From Chondrosia reniformis (Eukaryota > Porifera > Demospongiae > Chondrillida > Chondrillidae), in assembly GCA_947172415.1 (NCBI GenBank), contig OX359192.1:4032501-4096500 (forward strand): DNA of 64,000 nt, written 5' to 3'. This document shows, piece by piece, positions 47,817-64,000 of this stretch. How positions within the stretch are numbered: position 1 is the first letter of the stretch; each line of letters starts with the position of its first letter. The notes beneath the pieces were generated by a model. That model ran no database searches. It worked only from the letters and a program-made list of their open reading frames with translations, and was not told where the DNA came from. A program made the position numbers and the translations under genes.

Positions 47817-48845
47817 GACAGAGGCGTTCTAAGTCTGTCTGAAGTTGTTCGAGTCTAACTTGACAGAGGCGTTCTAAGTCTGTCTAAAGCTGTTCGAGTG
47901 TAGCTTAGCAGAGGCGTTCTATGTCTGTCTAAAGTTGTTCGAGTGTAACTTGACAGAGGCGTTCTAAGTCTGTCTATAGTTGTTCGAGTGTAGCTTAGCA
48001 GAGGGGTTCTATATTTGTCTAAAATTATTCGAGTGTAGCTTAGCAGAGGGGTTCTACATTTGTCTAAAGTTGTTTGAGTGTAGCTTAGCAGAGGGATTCT
48101 AAGTCTGTCTAAAATTGTTCGGGTGTAGCTTAGCAGAGGGGTTCTACATTTGTCTATAGTTGTTCGAGTGTAGCTTAGCAGAGGGGTTCTACATTTGTCT
48201 AAAGTTGTTCGAGTGTCGCTTAGCAGAGGGTTCTACATTTGTCTAAAGTTGTTTGAGTATAGCTTAGCAGAGGGGTTCTAAGTCTGTCTAAAATTGTTCG
48301 GGTGTAGCTTAGCAGAGGGGTTCTACATTTGTCTAAAGTTGTTCGAGTGTAGCTTAGCAGAGGGGTTCTATGTCTGTCTAAAGTTGTTCGAGTGTCCCTT
48401 AGCAGAGGCGTTTTAAGTCTGTCTAAAGTTGTTCGAGTGTACCTTAGCAGAGGGGTTCTAAGTCTGTCTAAAGTAGTTCAAGTGTAGCTTAGCAGAGGGG
48501 TTCTAAGTCTGTCTAAAGTAGTTCGAGTGTAGCTTAGCAGAGGGGTTCTAAGTCTGTCTAAAGTTGTTCGAGTGTAGCTTAGCAGAGGCGTTCAAGTCTA
48601 TCTAAACGGTTGTTCGAGTGTATAGCTTAGCAGAGGGGTTCTACGTGTGTCTAAAGTAGTTCGAGTGTAGCTTAGCATTGGGGTTCTAAGTGTGTCTAAA
48701 GTTGTTCGAGTGTAGGTTAGCTGAGGCGTTCTAAGTCTGTCTGAAGTTGTTCGAGTGTAACATGACAGAGGCGCTCTAAGTCTGTCTAAAGTCGTTCGAG
48801 TGTAGCTTAGCTGAAGGGTTCTACGTTTGTCTAAAGTTGTTCAAG
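47817..48845 (+). repeat. 45-bp minisatellite, block 1
   Basis: About 23 units of a 45-bp repeat, typical cores being gttcgagtgtagcttagcag and aggggttctaagtctgtct. Because 45 is a multiple of three, frames stay open over several units; those ORFs are not genes. 48846-49515 after it is AT-rich DNA in which I see nothing recognisable. Confidence 0.93.
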
Positions 48846-49515
48846 TGTAGATACACTAACATTACAATGTTACGTTTATTTAAGCTTAACACTTTAATTC
48901 GAAAAAGAGCTAAGCTTATCAGTAGCGTGAATGAAATATTAGAAGGCCTATGGCTACGTAGCTTAGCGCTTTAGCTTATCCCTAGCCTGTATGACATAAT
49001 GTACGACTGCATGTGTTTCTATGTAGTATTCTTGCAGTGCTTAGTTGGTGTAGACATTCTTTAAATCTATAATTATGGTTAGCAATAGCATTGAAGTGTT
49101 TCTGTGTGTGAGATTTCACTAATTTGTTGGTAATGAGGATATGCATTAAAGACTATCTAACAAAGTCTTGGCATCCCTCTTTGCTTGCTGGTTAGTGTTG
49201 AACGTCAACTTATGTTAAATGAGACAAACAGATATATAATAAATAATAAATCGATATGGAGTTTATGTGGCGCACGAAATGAGCCTTTGGCTGTATAAGG
49301 TTGAATAACTGATCAGTAAGGTCAAAATCATATCCCCTTTCGATCTACACTTACTAAGAACTTCCGCTAAGTTAATTATTTTAGCCGCAATACAGCTGTC
49401 GAGTAAGCGTTATTTCCTCTCGTTTTGTTTAGCTAGTATAAACACTCTTTATTTATTATATACACCCTACTGTTTTGTATAAACATTCTATTATTAATTA
49501 ATCACCTTTATAATG

Positions 49516-50065: not shown

Positions 50066-51365
50066 ACGTTCTAAGTCTGTCTAAAGTTGTTAGAGTGTAA
50101 CTTGACAGAGGCCTTCTAAGTCTGTCTAAGGTTGTTCGAGTGTAGCTTAGCAGTGGGGTTCTAAGCGTGTCTAAAGTTGTTCGAGTGTACCTTAGCAGAG
50201 GCGTTCTAAGTCTGTCTAAAGTTGTTCGAGTGTGACTTGACAGAGGCGTTCTAAGTCTGTCTAAAGTTGTTCGAGTGTACCTTAGCAGAGGCGTTCTAAA
50301 TCTCTCTGAAGTTGTTCGAGTGTATAGCTTAGCAGAGGGGTTCTAATTGTGTCTAAAGTAGTTCGAGTGTAGCTTAGCCGAGGCGTTCAAGTCTATCTAA
50401 ACGGTTGTTCGAGCGTATAGCTTAGCAGAGGGGTTCTACGTGTGTCTAAAGTTGTTCGAGTGTAGCTTAGCAGAGGGGTTCTAAGTCTCTCTGAAGTTGT
50501 TCGAGTGTATAGCTTAGCAGAGGGGTTCTAATTGTGTCTAAAGTAGTTCGAGTGTAGCTTAGCCGAGGCGTTCAAGTCTATCTAAACGGTTGTTCGAGCG
50601 TATAGTTTAGCAGAGGGGTTCTACGTGTGTCTAAAGTTGTTCGAGTGTAGCTTAGCAGAGGGGTTCTAAGTCTGTCTAAAGTAGTTCGAGTGTAGCTTAG
50701 CAGAGGGGTTCTACATTTGTCTAAAGTTGTACGAGTGTAGCTTAGCGGAGGGGTTCTACGTGTGTCTAACGTTGTTCGAGTGTGACTTGACAGAGGCGTT
50801 CTAAGTCTGTCTAAAGTTGTTCGAGTGTACCTTAGCAGAGGCGTTCTAAGTCTCTCTGAAGTTGTTCGAGTGTATAGCTTAGCCGAGGCGTTCTAAGCGT
50901 GTCTAAAGTGGGACGAGTGTAGCTTAGCAGAGGGGTTCTACGTGTGTCTAAAGTTGTTCGAGTGTGACTTGACAGAGGCGTTCTAAGTCTGTGTAAAGTT
51001 GTTCGAGTGTACCTTAGCAGAGGCGTTCTAAGTCTGTCTGAAGTTGTTCGAGTGTATAGGTTAGCAGAGGGGTTCTAAGTCTGTCTAAAGTTGTTCGAGT
51101 GTACCTTAGCAGAGGAATTCTAAGTCTGTCTAAAGTTGTTCGAGTGTAACCTGACAGAGGCGTTCTAAGTCTGTCTAAAGTTATTCTAGTGTAGCTTAGC
51201 AGAGGAGTTCTAAGTGTGTCTAAAGGTTATGAGTGTAGCTAACTTTGCTGAGGAGTTTTAAGTCTATCTAAGTTGTATGAGTGTAGCTTGACAGAAGTGT
51301 TCTACGTGTGTCTAAGGTTGTACAAGTGTAGCGTACAGAGGCATTCTACCTGTGTCTGATGTTGT
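50066..51365 (+). repeat. 45-bp minisatellite, block 2
   Basis: About 28 units of the repeat seen at 47817. Some units insert ta or gg (gtatagcttagc, aacggttgttcg), and pairs of units recur as a higher-order pattern near 50300-50650. The stretch 51366-51950 after it holds nothing I can recognise. Confidence 0.93.
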
Positions 51366-53580: not shown

Positions 53581-54193
53581 CGGTGCCTCCAAATACAGAC
53601 TTTTCTGTTAGTCCTATAGTCTTACGGCTCATGACTTCCCTCTACTAAAGTCTTACAGTACATTTAGGCAGAGGGGTTCTACATTTGTCTAAAGTTGTTC
53701 GAGTGTAGCTTAGCAGACGCGTTCTAAGTCTGTCTACTGTTGTACGAGTGTAGCTTAGCAGAGGGGTTCTAAGTCTGTCTAAAATTATTCGAGTGTAGCT
53801 TAGCAGAGGGGTTCTACATTTGTCTAAAGTTATTCGAGTGTAGCTTAGCAGAGGCGTTCTAAGCGTGTCTAAAGTTGTTCGTGTGTAGCTTAGCAGAGGG
53901 GTTGTAAGTGTGTCCATCGAGTTGTTCGAGTGTAACTTGACAGAGGCGTTCTAAGTCTGTCTTAAGTTGTTCGAGTGTAGCTTAGCAGAGGGATTCTAAG
54001 TCTGTTTAAAGTTGTTCGAGTGTAGCTTAGCAGAGGGGTTCTAAGTGTGTCTAAAGTTGTACGAGTGTAGCTTAGCAGAGGGGTTCTACATTTGTCTAAA
54101 GTTACGGTGCCTCCAAATATACCCTTTTCTGTTAGTCTTATAGTCTTACAGCTCATGACTTCCCTCTACTAAAGTCTTACAGTACATTTAGGC
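53581..54193. repeat. Direct repeat enclosing a third 45-bp minisatellite block
   Basis: An 89-bp sequence (from cggtgcctccaaata to cagtacatttaggc) occurs at 53581-53669 and again at 54105-54193. Between them are about ten units of the 45-bp minisatellite. The arrangement fits a tandem duplication or an insertion of minisatellite DNA. The minus-strand frames LRTPLLSYTRTT are translations of the repeat. Confidence 0.85.
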
Positions 54194-56557: not shown

Positions 56558-57426
56558 TATATATATATAATTTTATAGCTTTTCCAAGGTATATAAATGA
56601 GTGAAAAACTGAATTTAGTTGCTTATGAAACTGCTTTTATGGTATGCACAGTGAAACCAGAACTGGCTGGCTGACAAATTAATTTTATTTACAAATTGCA
56701 TGCTATGTTATTACTACATACTTTTTATCCCATGCAGCAGGAATCATCCCAAAAAACAGAACATGAAAGAAACAGTAAGAAAAGTTGCACAGAACACAAG
56801 CCAACTAAGCCATCATTGATACCGTAAAGTGACAATATTGCATGTATGTGTTTGTTTTATCTATAATTATGCAAGGCAATGTCTGGGCGCATAAATTTCT
56901 ATTGTATTATTTAATTACAACATTTATAAAGCTCGACCACACCAACTTCAAGTACGTCACAATGAATTCTTTTTCTAGCGTTGATAGTAAATGTGTTCGT
57001 AGAAGAATTGACGATAGTGGCAATAATGTTGAAGCAGCCATTTTTAAGTAAGTCGAAATCATCACTTCCATTTACTCTATAATATAGTTATTATTAGTCC
57101 AGAATCGTGCCGTCATGTGATCCTAGAAGGCTGTGAGTGGGGCAGCTGCTTAGAGGTGATGGGTGGGGCAGCTAGCTGCTCAAGCGGTGGTGCTATATAA
57201 TCTTGATTGACAAGATCACATGCATAAAAAATGCTAATGTGTTTAGAGGCCAAATTTTTAATAATCACAGTAATTTTTTCACATGCATGCAATTGTACCT
57301 TTACTGTAAGTTGCTCTATTCTGTGTGACTGGGTTTTGTTGATAATCATTTCTATATATATTAGCTGCCTTTCTATTTTTTATTCCAGGCTATAGATGTC
57401 TGAAAAATGAACAATATACGGTACGT
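56558..57426. other. Region upstream of the Helitron ORFs; possible 5' exon
   Basis: A frame starting at ATG 56962 (MNSFSSVDSKCVRRRIDDSG ...) runs to a consensus donor gtaagt at 57048. A pyrimidine tract ending ccag lies at 57388, and a second donor-like gtacgt at 57421. A spliced leader feeding the downstream Helitron frame is possible, but joining 57047 to 57389 gives an early stop, so this exon chain is doubtful. The Helitron's 5' TC end is not identified here. Confidence 0.25.
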
Positions 57427-58422
57427 ATGCATTCTAAGACTCCATTTGCATACATCTCAAATGAACAGACTGTCATGATAGGCACTATCTACAAACATAA
57501 TTACACTCAGTCTGTCAATTCTTTGCTCTGTTTCTGGAGTCAAAGTAAATCACCCTGTGGCTGGGGTCGATTACCCTGTGGCTGGGGTTGCTCACCCTGT
57601 GGCTGGGGTTGCTCACCCTGTGGCTGGGGTCAATTACCCTGTGGCTGGGGTTGCTCACCCTGTGGCTGGGGTCAATTACCCTGTGGCTGGGGTTGCCCAC
57701 CCTGTGGCTGGGGTTACTCACCCTGTGACTGGGGTTCTTCACCCTGTAGCTGGGATCAATTACCCAGTAGCTGGGGTTGCTCACCCAATGCACATGGCTG
57801 GGTAGGTTTGCCCTGTTTAGTGTCATTTCCAAGTTATACATTTAACTTAACAGACACAAATATTATTAACCATAAAGTAGTAGAGTACACTGTATTGAAT
57901 GAAATAAGAATGGGCATTTTGTGTACCCTTTCTACTACTTATGGGTGTAACCATGGGCATTACACTGCTAATTGGAAGGACTGTCATCCTAATTTAAGGA
58001 ACTATTATTGTGAAATGGTGCAATTGCATAAGAAATGCATTCATCAAAATCATTTCCGACTTAGAAATTCATTGGACCACTTGGCACGCAAAAGGAAACA
58101 TTGTAAGCGTAACGTTTATTTAGCATGTGTGTTAAGCTTACTGTTATTGCTGGCCGGAGATGTTGAACTAAATCCGGGACCATATCACAATAATGAAATT
58201 TCCAGCCTTCCTGCATCGGCTGCTAAGTTGACTGATGATCAGAGTAAAAAAAAAAGAGCAGAAAGTGAAGCAAGGAGGTCTTCAAGACTATCAATGCTAT
58301 CAACATATCAGAGAAAGTGTCTAGAAAATGAAACAGGAAAAGAATATTCTGCAAGGCTAGCAAAAATGTCTGAAAACCAAAGACTACGCCTACGTGTGAA
58401 ACAGAACAACAACGTTCTGTAA
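57427..58422 (+). CDS. Helitron leader ORF with 2A peptide
   Basis: A 331-codon frame. Codons from about 40 to 120 are the 21-bp minisatellite and may not be coding; ATG 58015 (MVQLHKKC) is a more credible start. From there a basic stretch (ARKRKHCKRN) leads into a hydrophobic run (VYLACVLSLLLLLAG) and DVELNPGP at 58159-58182 (residues 245-252 of the long frame). This matches the 2A consensus D(V/I)ExNPGP, at which ribosomes skip the final G-P bond. The hydrophobic run next to 2A resembles the signal-peptide-like 2A leaders described in some invertebrate non-LTR retrotransposons. After 2A come polar residues and the first 23-residue repeats, then the frame stops at 58422 because of a 1-nt loss. 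Confidence 0.75.
   Translation: MHSKTPFAYISNEQTVMIGTIYKHNYTQSVNSLLCFWSQSKSPCGWGRLPCGWGCSPCGWGCSPCGWGQLPCGWGCSPCGWGQLPCGWGCPPCGWGYSPCDWGSSPCSWDQLPSSWGCSPNAHGWVGLPCLVSFPSYTFNLTDTNIINHKVVEYTVLNEIRMGILCTLSTTYGCNHGHYTANWKDCHPNLRNYYCEMVQLHKKCIHQNHFRLRNSLDHLARKRKHCKRNVYLACVLSLLLLLAGDVELNPGPYHNNEISSLPASAAKLTDDQSKKKRAESEARRSSRLSMLSTYQRKCLENETGKEYSARLAKMSENQRLRLRVKQNNNVL
57551..57790 (+). repeat. 21-bp minisatellite (caccctgtggctggggttgct)
   Basis: About 11 units. Since 21 is a multiple of three, two plus frames and one minus frame stay open (SPCGWGC, HPVAGVA, NPSHRVS). This explains the long N-terminal part of the frame starting at 57427 without requiring that it is translated. Confidence 0.92.
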
Positions 58423-58780
58423 GACTGAGTAAATACTCTGAAAATCAAAAGAAGCGCTTAAAATCAGAAAGTGATGAGCAACATGAGGGTAGAGTTGCTA
58501 AACTTTCCGAAAATCAAAAGAAACGCTTAAAATCAGAAAGTGCTGAGCAACGTGAGGCCAGAGTTGCTACACTTTCTGAGAATCAAAGGAAGCGTTTAAA
58601 GTCAGAAAGTGCTGAGCAACATGAAGCCAGAGTAGCTACACTTCGTGAAAATCAAAAGAAGCGCTTAAAGTCACAAAGTATTGAAGAACGTCAAGCACGG
58701 CTTGCTACTCTCTCTGTAAATCGTAAGCAAAGGCTACTGTCAGAAACAGATGAAAATCTGGAGTCAAGACTAAGTGGTAT
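58231..58780 (+). repeat. 69-bp (23-codon) tandem repeat in the Helitron ORF
   Basis: About eight units with the pattern SENQKKRLKSES-EQ-EARVATL. SENQ-type codons begin at 58369, 58437, 58506 and 58575. The spacing is 69 nt except for the first interval, which is 68. The repeat is rich in K, R, E and Q and should form a charged helix or coiled coil. Similar Arg/Glu/Gln repeats are common at the N-termini of animal Helitron proteins. Confidence 0.9.
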
Positions 58781-59468
58781 GAAGGAATGGAAAAAATCAA
58801 GAAGCGTAAAAGAATCTGAACAGGAGCGTACTCTAAGATTGAAGAGAGAAAAGGATCAAGCAAGATTAAGAATGCAGGCATTTAGAAAGCGAAAACAGGA
58901 ATTGTTTACAAACCATGAGTCATTAGATGAATACCATGGAGTGCAAAAAACTGAAAATGTACAATGTGCCAGTGTTACTTCACAGGTAAATTTGGCTGTT
59001 GGAGATATAGATATTCTATCAAAAGAAGGACTACAAGGGGAACAAATATTGCTTTGTAACCATGCAGTTTTGTATGGTGCTGCTAAGCAAGATTGCACCT
59101 ACCAAATGTCTGAAAAGAAAGACATGGAAGAGGATGCAGAAGTTACTGCTATTACAGTTTCAGAATCTGTTGTTACTGTACCAACACTTCAGATTGCATT
59201 GCCATCTAATCAAGGCAAAAAATTGAGAAATAATTTGCAAAAGTTTGAAAAAGTAATTCTGGAAGGGCCTACCCATAAATGTTATTCATGTGGAAAGTTG
59301 TGCTATAGACAGTTGGGTGCGACATTTAGCTTGGATGTTGCAGTTGAGTTACTTTCTACAATAAATGAATCAATTCAAGATAATATTAAAACTGTTTGGT
59401 TTTGTAACAGGTGTAAGAATTTGTTACAAAGAAAAAAATTCCAGCAGTGTCTCAGTTTAATAAAATGA
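58374..59468 (+). CDS. Helitron ORF middle part: charged repeats and Cys-rich domain
   Basis: Open from 58374 to a TGA at 59466-59468. It has no initiator until ATG 58779, which lies inside the repeats, so it is best read as the continuation of the 2A leader frame after a 1-nt change near 58395. The first part is the 23-residue repeat, followed by SVKESEQERTLRLKREKDQA. The C-terminal part has two Cys pairs, CYSCGKLC (59280-59303) and CNRC (59403-59414), with a hydrophobic segment between. This Cys-rich block normally sits just upstream of the Rep region in RepHel proteins and runs directly into a KxPxxxxxNxM motif. Here that continuation is in the -1 frame (see 59432). Confidence 0.7.
   Translation, partial: KPKTTPTCETEQQRSVRLSKYSENQKKRLKSESDEQHEGRVAKLSENQKKRLKSESAEQREARVATLSENQRKRLKSESAEQHEARVATLRENQKKRLKSQSIEERQARLATLSVNRKQRLLSETDENLESRLSGMKEWKKSRSVKESEQERTLRLKREKDQARLRMQAFRKRKQELFTNHESLDEYHGVQKTENVQCASVTSQVNLAVGDIDILSKEGLQGEQILLCNHAVLYGAAKQDCTYQMSEKKDMEEDAEVTAITVSESVVTVPTLQIALPSNQGKKLRNNLQKFEKVILEGPTHKCYSCGKLCYRQLGATFSLDVAVELLSTINESIQDNIKTVWFCNRCKNLLQRKKFQQCLSLIK
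59432..59438 (+). promoter_or_regulatory. A AAA AAA heptamer, possible -1 frameshift site or homopolymer indel
   Basis: The zero frame reads AGA AAA AAA TTC, so the seven As form an in-phase slippery heptamer 28 bases before the TGA. A -1 slip here continues with ATT CCA GCA GTG, giving KKIPAVSQFNKMKVVDIP and then the 1512-codon RepHel frame. That continuation is the one expected for the family. A lost A in a run of eight explains the same facts. Confidence 0.5.
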
Positions 59469-62400
59469 AAGTGGTGGACATCCCTTCAGTGTTAATGGGA
59501 TTAAATACATTGGAGCAACGTTTGATTTCAAAGGCCACTGTTTTCATGAAAATGGTGATATTACCAAGGGGTGGACAAAGGGCTGTCCGAGGGCAAGTGA
59601 TTAACTTTCCTTCAAATGTTGACTCTGTCATTTCGGAACTCCCCCGTCTACCTAATGGGGAAGATATTGTTTACATTCAGCAGCCACAGTCACCAGAAAG
59701 TGAAGACAAAAGTAATGGGCCTGATAAAGCTTATCATTGCTGTCGGTACTCTAGAGTTATGCAAGCATTGCAATGGCTAAAGCAGCATAACCCCTTGTAT
59801 AGAGATGTCTCCATCAGCAACATATCAGAAGGTATGTTTGTTGATGGTGAAGAAGTCACCGAAGGTGAGAACAGCCGACAAGAAGAAAATCTTGAAATGG
59901 ATGAAACTGGAATTGTCAGGTTGGATGCTCTCCAGCCTAATGTAGTTGCTGTTGAATTGGTACAAGAACGTAAATCAATTGAACACCAGGTTCATGAGTT
60001 ACAAAGAATAACAGCTACACCATTGAGCATATTTGAGGATCGGGATGATCTTGAAGCAATGGCTTTTCCAACTTTATATCCTGATGGTGAAAATAGCTTT
60101 GGTAAAATCAGAGAGACCAAGGTTTCACCTCTACAGTATTTCCAAGCGAGATTGCTGAGTGCTGACACAAGATGGGCCTGTCATCCTTCATACATCTTTT
60201 GGGCATGCAACATTGTGGAAGCACTGAAGTTGCAGAGCAGCATTTCCATCGCTATGAGAATGCGGTCTTTCAGAGTAAGCCACTTTGATAATAAGACTGA
60301 CAATGAAACTGATGATAAGCGCTTACTCACAGCTGGATTGCTTAGAGGACCATTGGATGACAATCCCGAATTGCGTGAAAACTGTTACAGTTTCATGAAA
60401 GACATTCGTGGTACGCAAGCTTATTGGAACTCAGTGAAGATCCAATTATTTGCTATGTTTCGCACTCTTGGTCCTCCCACATTCTTTATTACACTGAGTG
60501 CTGATGATAATAACTGGGTAGACTTGATGATAGTTCTAAGCGAAAGTCGGGGTCAAAATCTCTCAGAGGAAGAAGCAGCCAACCTGTCATCCAGTGAAAA
60601 AAGAAACCTGATGAGGTCCAATCCGGTGGTTACAGCTAGGCATTTTGCCCATCGTTTTCAGTCCTTTGTCAGGGAGGTCATTAAAGGATCTGGACAACCC
60701 ATTGGCGAGGTGGTTGATTACTTTTGGAGAATTGAATTTCAGTTGAGGGGTTCCCCACATGTCCATTCTATGTGGTGGATAAAGGATGCTCCCAACCTAG
60801 ACACAACAGTTGGAAGGCAGATTGCCCCACAGTACATTGATCGGTATATATCTGTGAACATACCAAATGAAGGTAGCAAGGATGAACAACTGCATTCTTT
60901 GGTAATGCACGTGCAGCAACACCATCATACAGTCACTTGCAAAAAGGCAACAAACAGACGTCCAAATGTGAAGGATTGTCGATTTGACTTTCCTCAGCCT
61001 CTCTCAGAGGTTACAAGGCTGAAAAACAATGACGATCCTGGAAACAAGTCCAGGTTTTATGTTCTGAAACGATCAGAAGGGGAGGAAAACTGCAATCCAT
61101 ACAATGCACACCTTCTAAAGGCATGGAAGGCTAATATGGATATACAGTTGATTGGGTCTGTTTATGGGACAGCAGCATATGTTTGTTCATATATGTGCAA
61201 ATCGGAAAGTGAGGAGGTTAGGAAAGCAATCCGGGATGCACTGGAAAGCTTGCCTCCTCGGGCTACAGCAAGAAAGCGCCTCTCAAAGGTTGGCAACACC
61301 ATGTTGACACACCGTGAATTGAGTGCCCAGGAGGCAGCATATCGATTATGTCATTTGCCTCTCAAGGAAAACTCCAGAAAAGTGGTTTTTGTTAACACCA
61401 CCAAGCCAGAGAAGAGAACACGCTTGCTAAAATGTAAAGCTGAATTGCTTCAATTGGAGGATGATTCCACTGACATTTTTGCTCCTGGCATCTTTGATAG
61501 ATATGCCTCACGACCAGACTCACAACACTTTGCCAACATGACGTTGGCTCACTTTGCCGTCTGGTATGATGTGGATGGATGTGATGGTTCCGTTGGAAGT
61601 GGATCAGGGCAGCCTCGTAGCCAACTGCAAAACAACTTGGGATGGGTGCGCCTTCGAAGGAAGCAAGCTTGCCTTCGAATACCAGTACAGACAGTAGAAA
61701 GTCATGGTGATGACTATTACTACAGTTTGCTGCTTCTTTACATTCCTTGGAGGAAGGAACCCGTGGATCTCCTACTACACCACTCTTCAGCAATGGAGGC
61801 TTTCATTGCAAGGGAGGGAGAAATGGTTGTTCTTAATGCAGAGAACCACACTTTTGCAGACGAGGTGCAGAGGGCTGTTGTACAATTGCAAGCCTTGAAA
61901 GACGATGCTTATCAGGATGCAGTTGCACCTATGACACTCCAAGTTCATCGAGAGGATGCTGCCAAACCTCCTGTAGAGGCTGAGGGTGGATTGATGAACC
62001 CTGAGAATTTTGCTGATCCTCATTACTTTCAGGATGACACTGAGGGTGCAGGAAATTTAGATGAAGGGATTATAAATGATGACGACAATGCCATTGGGGC
62101 AATGATTAGATGCACCCTTCCTGATGAGGTCTTTCGGCAACTAGTTGCAAACCTCAATACACAACAACGGGTTCCATTTGACATAGTTGTTCAGTACACT
62201 CGAGAATTACATAAGTACCAAATGAAGCTACGCCCAAAAGCTCCAGAAGCTTTTCATCTGTTTGTGACAGGTGGAGCGGGCACTGGTAAATCACACGTAA
62301 TTAGAGCAATTAAAGAGCATTTGGAGCGCTCGGTCTCCAGTGGGCCAGACAAGCATGCATGCATCTTGATGGCACCTACAGGGGTTGCAGCTTTTAACGT

Positions 62401-64000
62401 TGGAGGCCTAACCATCCACAGAGCCCTGAGACTGCAAGTAGAGCATGGCAAGACGGCCCATCAGTTACAACTGCATGCTTTAGCATTGCATGATTTGAGA
62501 AAATTGTGGCAAGGGGTGCACACTATCATAATTGATGAAATTAGTATGGTTTCATACCAGATATTGAAGTCTGTACACAGCCGTCTGTGTGAAATTTATG
62601 GCAATGATGAAATATTTGGTGGTTTGAATGTGATAGCTGTGGGAGACTTATACCAGCTGTCGCCTGTGAATGGGAGCCATGTTTTCAGTAAGAAACCTGG
62701 TCGTTCATCAGGCCGATTGTCTTCACACCTTTGGAGAGATTTCTTCAAGGTCGTTGAATTAGAAGTTAATATGCGGCAGCAAAAAGATGCTACCTTTTCA
62801 GATATCCTTAATCGTGTCAGAATAGGCAACCACACGGTTGAAGATGTTAAAGTTTTGCACACACGGTTGCTTTCCAGTGGATCTGTGGATTTACTGGCTC
62901 CCCCATTTGAAACTGCCCTCAGATTGTATCCTCGTTCAGTGGATGTAGAAGGATATAATGAAACCCAGATTACATGTTTGGCAAAAGACAATCAACTGTA
63001 TAGAATTGATGCAGAACATGCAATTCTACAGAGTCGAGGACAATTCTATGCCCATGTTAATTACAATGAGGTTCCTGAACGCCTCATTCCACAGGATGAC
63101 AAAGATTGTGCTGCATTACCTCGTCAATTGAAGTTAGCAATTGGTGCCAGAGTGATGCTTCGCCGTAACATCAACTGTGGTGATGGCCTTGTGAATGGTG
63201 CCAGAGGTATAATTGTGGGATTCAAATGGCCAGGAAAAACAAATAATCAGAGAAAACCTGGTGAAATGCCTACAGAGGTGTATGTCAAATTCTTTGATCC
63301 AAATGTGGGAAGCCTCTCAAAGGTGACAATTGCCTCTGGTGATCAGGAAGTTGTGCCGATTGCAGCAATTTCAGCATACTTCTATGGAAAGGAAGGCACA
63401 CTCTTGCAGAGAACACAGATTCCTTTGATTCTCTGCTGGGCAGCCACTGTGCATAAAGTGCAAGGTTTGTCACTTGATGCAGCAGTCATGGATCTTGGTA
63501 AGGACGTTTTTGAACCTGGTATGGCCTATGTAGCTCTCAGTCGCGTGCGTACTCTAAATGGAGTGGCCCTACTGAACTTTGAGCCACAAAAGATGACAGC
63601 AAACAAGAGAGTTCATGAGGAAATGGCAAGGCTGCGACAACAGTCTACTTGTGGTAGTGTATTGCAAAGTGACGGGCAGACATCAGATCTATTGGTTCAG
63701 AACTGCAAACGTCCTGACAAATCAAACAGTGAAAACAGGGCCAATCCTTTGGTGGAGGACAAAAGTGCTGCATTGCATAGTGAGAAGCAGACATTGTCTA
63801 CTAAAAATAGGGATAATGAGTTACAAGGCAAGCAGAAGCCTATAGTAGTCCACATGGAAGTCAGTCAATCTGTACACTTAAATCCGATTGTTAATGTTGA
63901 TGCACAGCTGGTGTCCTCACTGAAAACGGCACTAGAAGTGATAGTAAATGAAAATAGTCCAACTGTTGAGTCGATAACAAAATGGGCAAACTCTCACAGC
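59465..64000 (+). CDS. Helitron RepHel protein (HUH Rep + Pif1-type helicase), 3' partial
   Basis: 1512 codons without a stop, open at the window edge. ATG 59465 overlaps the upstream TGA (ATGA). The natural entry may be a frameshift at 59438, since family-like sequence already begins there. Rep domain: PHVHS at residues 431-435 (HUH histidines H432 and H434) and the two-tyrosine motif YVCSYMCK (Y572, Y576, K579), the nucleophiles that nick and join single-stranded DNA at rolling-circle transposition. Helicase domain (SF1, Pif1/RecD type): Walker A GGAGTGKS (936-943), IIDEISM with D1024-E1025, GDLYQLSP (1060-1067), TVHKVQG (1328-1334) and YVALSRVRT (1355-1363). All key residues are present. 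After residue 1370 the protein continues with polar sequence of no recognised domain. This copy belongs to the canonical Helitron group. Confidence 0.93.
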   Translation, partial: MKVVDIPSVLMGLNTLEQRLISKATVFMKMVILPRGGQRAVRGQVINFPSNVDSVISELPRLPNGEDIVYIQQPQSPESEDKSNGPDKAYHCCRYSRVMQALQWLKQHNPLYRDVSISNISEGMFVDGEEVTEGENSRQEENLEMDETGIVRLDALQPNVVAVELVQERKSIEHQVHELQRITATPLSIFEDRDDLEAMAFPTLYPDGENSFGKIRETKVSPLQYFQARLLSADTRWACHPSYIFWACNIVEALKLQSSISIAMRMRSFRVSHFDNKTDNETDDKRLLTAGLLRGPLDDNPELRENCYSFMKDIRGTQAYWNSVKIQLFAMFRTLGPPTFFITLSADDNNWVDLMIVLSESRGQNLSEEEAANLSSSEKRNLMRSNPVVTARHFAHRFQSFVREVIKGSGQPIGEVVDYFWRIEFQLRGSPHVHSMWWIKDAPNLDTTVGRQIAPQYIDRYISVNIPNEGSKDEQLHSLVMHVQQHHHTVTCKKATNRRPNVKDCRFDFPQPLSEVTRLKNNDDPGNKSRFYVLKRSEGEENCNPYNAHLLKAWKANMDIQLIGSVYGTAAYVCSYMCKSESEEVRKAIRDALESLPPRATARKRLSKVGNTMLTHRELSAQEAAYRLCHLPLKENSRKVVFVNTTKPEKRTRLLKCKAELLQLEDDSTDIFAPGIFDRYASRPDSQHFANMTLAHFAVWYDVDGCDGSVGSGSGQPRSQLQNNLGWVRLRRKQACLRIPVQTVESHGDDYYYSLLLLYIPWRKEPVDLLLHHSSAMEAFIAREGEMVVLNAENHTFADEVQRAVVQLQALKDDAYQDAVAPMTLQVHREDAAKPPVEAEGGLMNPENFADPHYFQDDTEGAGNLDEGIINDDDNAIGAMIRCTLPDEVFRQLVANLNTQQRVPFDIVVQYTRELHKYQMKLRPKAPEAFHLFVTGGAGTGKSHVIRAIKEHLERSVSSGPDKHACILMAPTGVAAFNVGGLTIHRALRLQVEHGKTAHQLQLHALALHDLRKLWQGVHTIIIDEISMVSYQILKSVHSRLCEIYGNDEIFGGLNVIAVGDLYQLSPVNGSHVFSKKPGRSSGRLSSHLWRDFFKVVELEVNMRQQKDATFSDILNRVRIGNHTVEDVKVLHTRLLSSGSVDLLAPPFETALRLYPRSVDVEGYNETQITCLAKDNQLYRIDAEHAILQSRGQFYAHVNYNEVPERLIPQDDKDCAALPRQLKLAIGARVMLRRNINCGDGLVNGARGIIVGFKWPGKTNNQRKPGEMPTEVYVKFFDPNVGSLSKVTIASGDQEVVPIAAISAYFYGKEGTLLQRTQIPLILCWAATVHKVQGLSLDAAVMDLGKDVFEPGMAYVALSRVRTLNGVALLNFEPQKMTANKRVHEEMARLRQQSTCGSVLQSDGQTSDLLVQNCKRPDKSNSENRANPLVEDKSAALHSEKQTLSTKNRDNELQGKQKPIVVHMEVSQSVHLNPIVNVDAQLVSSLKTALEVIVNENSPTVESITKWANSHS

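Follow-up and report, generated by a model that had tools for sequence, protein, structure and literature searches.

Organisation of the motif-bearing Helitron copy

The window, a stretch of 64,000 nucleotides corresponding to C4:4032501-4096500 of the Chondrosia reniformis genome (G000; 117,379,552 bases in 15 contigs, the assembly odChoReni1.1 being described as 14 chromosomes and a mitochondrion (PMC12181767)), contains on its forward strand a Helitron split over three reading frames. The first of these runs without a stop over 57346-58422, and translation of 58000-58299 gives ...ARKRKHCKRNVYLACVLSLLLLLAGDVELNPGPYHNNEISS..., in which the octapeptide DVELNPGP occupies 58159..58182, its D starting at 58159 and its final P ending at 58182. 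The D(V/I)ExNPGP that forms the C-terminal core of 2A/StopGo peptides is present here as DVELNPGP, so that the match to the 2A consensus claimed in an earlier, sequence-only reading is borne out by translation. The expected skip point would lie between the G at 58177-58179 and the P at 58180-58182.

The leader was delimited as 57910..58158, from the upstream candidate ATG (57910) to the last residue before the octapeptide; a second candidate start is found at ATG 58015. In both, position -3 is a purine and position +4 is G, which is a good context, and each is absent from some family when the families are compared. The octapeptide is immediately preceded by KRKHCKRNVYLACVLSLLLLLAG, and the residues from 58114 to 58158, VYLACVLSLLLLLAG, form a leucine-rich hydrophobic segment with a Kyte-Doolittle mean of 2.57 over 15 residues, ahead of which six lysines or arginines fall within 15 residues. 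The basic and hydrophobic residues which the same reading had placed before the motif are therefore found there, and the order of basic stretch, hydrophobic stretch and motif is kept in all eight Helitron representatives examined. Further upstream, Tandem Repeats Finder (TRF) identified a 21/42-bp minisatellite composed of CCCTGTGGCTGGGG units on the same strand (57548..57786), which is probably not translated.

Beyond the motif, the first frame encodes the start of the downstream protein and its first repeats (58183..58422, forward strand) before a stop ends it; in L031, a relative of the window copy, the same frame continues. A second forward frame (58374..59468) holds repeats matching Pfam STPR (PF21107), and a third (59417..64000, still open at the window end) holds DUF6570, Helitron_like_N (60137-60772) and a PIF1 helicase (62255-62842). 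The motif had been placed in frame with the repeats that lead into RepHel, and this stands for the first repeats, the others lying in the second frame and RepHel in the third. As two frame changes separate the 2A from the Rep domain, the Helitron being spread over three frames, the window copy is unable to make the fusion from a single frame. L035, elsewhere on the same contig, has a leader identical to that of the window copy and is 99.9% identical over 1800 bases upstream. Its 2A frame is likewise 358 aa long, so that the copy may have been broken already when it was duplicated or was mobilised in trans.

Helitron families and uninterrupted relatives

The motif is carried by five families belonging to two Rep lineages which are approximately 30% identical. 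F1 (the window copy and L031) and F2 (L032) have DVELNPGP, F3 (L033, L034) and the related F3b (L039, L044) have DIESNPGP, F4 (L043, L066, L069) has DVEVNPGP, and F5 (L064, L065, L068) has DVEQ, DMEQ or DIEQNPGP, the DMEQ variant departing from the V/I of the 2A core. Helitron_like_N identity is 85% for F1-F2, 66% for F1-F4, 93% for F3-F3b and 66% for F3-F5, and falls to 27-32% between F1/F2/F4 and F3/F3b/F5. F5 should be considered weaker evidence, since it was through the motif search that its sites were found, and proximity is their only tie to Rep. A minisatellite unit, GTGGCTGGG, is common to the F1, F2 and F3 loci.

Fifteen relatives were fetched as 10-kb loci for a comparison of frames, and in four of them leader, 2A and RepHel are found in one unbroken frame with the 2A inside it: L031 (2523 aa), L032 (2312 aa), L033 (2510 aa) and L034 (2555 aa, 99% identical to L033). 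Motifs lying out of frame in relatives had been named as evidence that would speak against the earlier reading; in these four copies the 2A is in the RepHel frame, between two protein-coding parts, which is not so in the window copy. Elsewhere, L043 (F4) has one 707-aa frame holding the 2A and part of DUF6570, and in L038, L039 and L045 the 2A frame is that of the next long ORFs, with single stops between. The Pfam scan of uninterrupted copies covered L031, in which STPRs, DUF6570, Helitron_like_N, PIF1 and OTU were matched, and L033, which matched the same domains with the STPR match absent; the L032 frame stops short of the place of the OTU domain.

The Rep and helicase parts identify these elements as Helitrons. 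Helitron_like_N and a PIF1-type helicase share one frame in L031 and L033. The Helraiser structure 7lcc is matched by L031 in its helicase region, and the repeats of L031 match the STPR protein FMBP-1. When the Rep domains of F1, F2 and F3 are aligned, the positions without variation include R204, G205, P207, H208 and H210, together with Y348, Y352 and K355, which we read as the HUH and two-tyrosine motifs. As for the 3' terminal hairpin and defined ends expected of a Helitron, the homology shared by the F1 copies stops directly behind a strong hairpin, with a folding energy 7.8 SD below that of shuffled sequences (z -7.8), both 14-base arms of which are also present in L038 (F2) and L043 (F4). 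The 5' end of the element was looked for and not found, and a search of NCBIfam gave nothing useful.

A number of other observations were made on the surroundings of these elements. Arrays of 45-bp units occur in the window at 47819-48850, 50067-51348 and 53668-54103, and within the units the 14-base arm of the hairpin at the F1 3' end recurs as near-copies with one or two mismatches. Repeats resembling CTAGTTGTATGTA are abundant near or after the Helitron 3' ends in L035, L036, L032, L041 and L045, and are perhaps a preferred site of Helitron insertion. Three F4 leader matches lie on one strand at intervals of exactly 11,965 bp (G000:C5:4587318, 4599283 and 4611248) and two F1 leader matches lie 10,825 bp apart, also on one strand (G000:C6:4212536 and 4223361), a spacing that would fit whole elements joined in tandem, an arrangement which rolling-circle replication could yield. 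There is also a strong mid-chromosome accumulation: 114 of the 119 merged Helitron_like_N loci (contigs C1-C14) are located between 30% and 60% of their contig.

Genome-wide linkage, selection and proposed exchange of the leader

A search of the 117.4 Mb with a degenerate 23-mer found 126 exact D[V/I/M]ExNPGP sites, compared with a single site for the reversed pattern and a chance expectation of approximately 0.2 by our own arithmetic, assuming equal base frequencies. The Pfam search of the genome gave 133 Helitron_like_N matches, merged into 119 loci. Helitron_like_N was found downstream on the same strand within 6 kb of 69 of the 126 sites, at a distance of 0.55-3.36 kb, whilst none of the 126 had it within 6 kb upstream and none had it on the other strand. 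Seen from the Rep side, 69 of the 119 loci have the exact motif upstream and 50 have none within 6 kb upstream. When counted by matches, the motif lies upstream in 19 of the 20 whose open frame reaches 1000 aa or more, the single exception being C6:4225690 (L006), which has NLGP, and in 27 of 29 with an open frame of at least 700 aa.

As sites found by the motif cannot reveal its loss, the leader protein and the Rep domain were also used as starting points. The 95-aa leader protein matches 94 places in the genome, of which 89 cover the motif; the exact motif is kept in 71 of these and missing in 18, an outcome which bears on the concern, raised in the sequence-only reading, that related copies might lack it. 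Four of the 18 were read: L006 and L013 have NLGP, L012 has DVKLNPGP and L024 has NPGL, and stops are found in or near the leader in L006, L012 and L013, with none in the stretch of L024 that was read.

A third Rep lineage (L159, L160, L162), with Helitron_like_N 27-34% identical to that of the others, appears from its sequence to be without the 2A motif. None of these three loci has the exact motif within 6 kb upstream, and the 3 kb upstream of one member contains other repeats and no NPGP. Approximately nine of the 50 motif-less loci were placed in this lineage by eye, the Rep domain being read in three. In a Helitron of the third lineage (L163, 1488-2204), N-terminal GGRPTGTTAEAGYDVS repeats are found where leader and 2A would be.

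Relatives in other genomes were sought with the full protein and with the Rep domain. Against genome contigs, the full protein matched six bacterial loci over query residues 54-154 only, seeded on the CGWG repeats; against viral contigs, the best 80 of 290 matches were confined to the helicase part, within residues 1650-2185, and when the Rep domain served as the sole query all 53 candidate stretches failed confirmation. Since the cross-species search gave no relative, conservation of the 2A rests on families within one genome.

Selection was estimated as Nei-Gojobori dN/dS with bootstrap 95% intervals for the final 56 codons up to the motif. Purifying selection acts on the leader, with dN/dS of 0.29 (0.10-0.59) for F1-F2, 0.28 (0.11-0.71) for F3-L039, 0.29 (0.12-0.65) for F3-L044 and 0.26 (0.07-0.85) for L039-L044; dN/dS below 1 had been proposed as a check, and is found in all four pairs. 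Within the octapeptide itself there are four synonymous and no nonsynonymous changes between F1 and F2, two and none both for F3 against L039 and for F3 against L044, and no differences between L039 and L044; across the eight representatives N, P, G and P are written with two, three, three and three codons.

The rest of the frame behaves less uniformly. In F1-F2, codons 0-130 have dN/dS of 0.77-1.25 and dS of only 0.04-0.13, as opposed to a dS of 1.15 in the last 56 codons, so that these codons, the CGWG minisatellite included, look non-coding and recently shared; the whole stop-to-stop frame from 57346 was rejected as a protein on the same grounds. In the F3 pairs, dN/dS is indistinguishable from 1 in several windows that precede these 56 codons. 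Selection is seen on both sides of the 2A except in the first 40 codons after it in F1-F2, for which dN/dS is 0.80 (bootstrap 0.33-1.91), with no departure from neutrality.

Similarity of the leader does not track that of Rep. Over the 48 residues before the motif, F2 and F3 are 56% identical with only 29% identity in Rep, whereas the figures are 53% and 85% for F1-F2, 30% and 66% for F1-F4, and 21% and 66% for F3-F5. These pairwise identities suggest, as the simplest reading, a 5' module exchanged between Helitron lineages as a swapped cassette. At the nucleotide level, L031 571-1744 and L032 were compared: the 5' region is 85-88% identical between F1 and F2 and RepHel is 80% identical, whilst the leader-to-repeats stretch between them gave no blastn match at E 1e-20. 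As 5' identity exceeds that of RepHel with no match in between, the 5' part of F1 and F2 seems to have been exchanged recently.

Predicted ribosome skipping and known 2A systems

The sequence-only reading had proposed a 2A peptide in the leader of a Helitron, and that the peptide belongs to a Helitron protein is now well supported by the frame shared in four copies, the strand-specific linkage to Helitron_like_N at 69 sites, selection on the leader and the leucine-rich context. We consider it likely that a StopGo/2A peptide ends the leader and that the predicted skipping would free the hydrophobic leader from the replicase. One long frame would be translated, with the leucine-rich segment and DxExNPG acting in the ribosome exit tunnel; the bond between G and P would be left unmade and the hydrophobic leader let go, whilst the ribosome would continue to make a separate protein, starting at P and comprising the repeats, DUF6570, Rep, the helicase and, in copies that have it, OTU. 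In this way the replicase would be rid of its membrane-prone leader. Viral StopGo sequences have been classed by the hexapeptide before the core, with the leucine-rich motifs 2 and 6 ending in (A/S/C)G before D and a motif 6 example being active in reticulocyte lysate; in the model put forward, the exit tunnel is blocked by a leucine-rich segment (as described for F2A), D, E and N make contact with rRNA, and no bond forms between G and P (PMC12846837). The hexapeptides LLLLAG (F1) and LLLLSG (F4) fit this published class and LLLLGG (F2, F3) is a near fit, whilst LLLYHG and ILLCHG of F5 have no (A/S/C)G ending and do not match it. The motif, the shared frame, conservation, selection and the linkage to Rep are observed; skipping in the Helitron leader, though likely, its efficiency, and the fate and use of the leader, we infer.

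The leader might also have a second role, compatible with skipping, in which the segment would be a membrane signal as well as a StopGo element, so that the skipped product would go to the cytosol and nucleus and the unskipped product would be tethered to or sent into membranes. Sea urchin NLR proteins offer a precedent (PMC4981915), and a basic and hydrophobic segment directly precedes the motif in 8 of 8 representatives. However, the hydrophobic stretch begins approximately 35 or 70 residues from the two candidate starts in the window, which is far for a cleavable signal peptide, and leucine-rich upstream residues are also simply what one StopGo class needs; we regard dual targeting as rather unlikely. 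Any signal role would depend on which start is used, as the candidate ATG sets the distance of the segment from the N-terminus. If, instead, the leader served to anchor the protein in membranes or formed some other conserved N-terminal domain, and the 2A were inactive, the replicase would stay fused to it. Purifying selection does span the whole leader and not the motif alone, but the octapeptide is kept while its neighbours change, varying only synonymously in the compared pairs, and it is found again behind leaders that share no more than 20-31% identity (F5 against the others). A replicase that kept a hydrophobic segment would, moreover, presumably need access to nuclear DNA. We thus judge an inactive 2A improbable.

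The same genome does contain 2A loci with PHD and endonuclease domains, and the motif might belong to such a non-LTR element lying beside the Helitron or inserted in it. There are 49 motif sites without a leader match or nearby Helitron_like_N, of which 18 were read (L046-L063) and the proteins scanned at eight; seven of the eight have an endonuclease match (that of L056 being below the curated cut-off), in the 2A frame at L047, L055, L062 and L063, and the eighth, L050, has a sub-threshold PHD finger only. By their sequences these look like APE-type non-LTR retrotransposons, in which 2A-like sequences have been reported for L1Tc (Heras 2006) and for animal APE-type elements (Odon 2013) (PMC4981915). 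However, the order and strand of motif and Rep are constant at 69 loci, the open frame is shared in four copies, and no endonuclease match was found in the L031 or L033 frames, so that a 2A owned by a neighbouring or inserted retrotransposon is highly improbable; as an accident at one copy it is refuted by the 69-locus linkage and the four joint frames. The 2A may, however, have been captured long ago and retained since. As for a chance match in a non-coding leader, codons 0-130 of the same open frame look non-coding in F1-F2, and an open frame alone proves little for this reason, but the 126 sites against one for the reversed pattern, the Rep linkage and a leader dN/dS well below 1 refute it; chance and accidental neighbourhood are both ruled out by the reversed-pattern control, the strand-specific linkage and the Rep-side count.

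Returning to skipping as the preferred reading, one reading frame probably yields two proteins by the predicted mechanism. What emerges is a conserved and selected putative 2A at the end of the leader, in frame with the replicase in the uninterrupted copies, in several Helitron families of one sponge; the literature search found no earlier report of 2A in Helitrons, though one may exist. Among mobile elements, ribosome skipping has been described for non-LTR retrotransposons (PMC4981915). With the 2A signal retained by several Helitron families, skipping would reach DNA transposons as well and would let a rolling-circle element make two proteins from one frame, and the reason for which mobile elements retain a hydrophobic leader with 2A could be tested directly. 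Annotated Helitron proteins may, in addition, contain a leader that the mature replicase lacks. More speculatively, and on balance we think it unlikely, a StopGo 5' cassette could have been swapped between Rep lineages approximately 30% identical and kept by selection, with skipping efficiency setting the ratio of free nuclear to membrane-tethered replicase and thereby tuning transposition. If the cassette reading is true, DNA transposons would have their own counterpart to the 2A strategy found in RNA viruses and in non-LTR elements, the latter being present in the same genome.

The sponge elements resemble non-LTR retrotransposons in being mobile elements with D(V/I)ExNPGP in frame with their own enzyme; the latter, however, are reverse-transcribing class I elements with an endonuclease, whereas the sponge element belongs to the rolling-circle DNA transposons and encodes Rep and helicase. 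In sea urchin NLR proteins a hydrophobic leader likewise ends in a 2A motif before a large protein, and the 2A-like sequence is reported to act also as a signal sequence (PMC4981915), but these genes serve host immunity and the activity of their N-terminal sequence of 26 aa has been tested, whereas the Helitron leader is longer and known from sequence. The Helitron-type RepHel protein itself, with OTU in L031 and L033, is shared with Helentron-type OTU Helitrons, for which the available part of the description mentions no 2A leader and from which L031 and L033 differ in having no AP endonuclease match (PMC9741609). With the leucine-rich viral StopGo sequences, typified by LLLLSG, the likeness lies in the residues before D (LLLLAG in F1, LLLLSG in F4 and LLLLGG in F2 and F3), but that survey concerns viral ORFs, and the terms helitron, transpos and sponge have no occurrences in its main text (PMC12846837).
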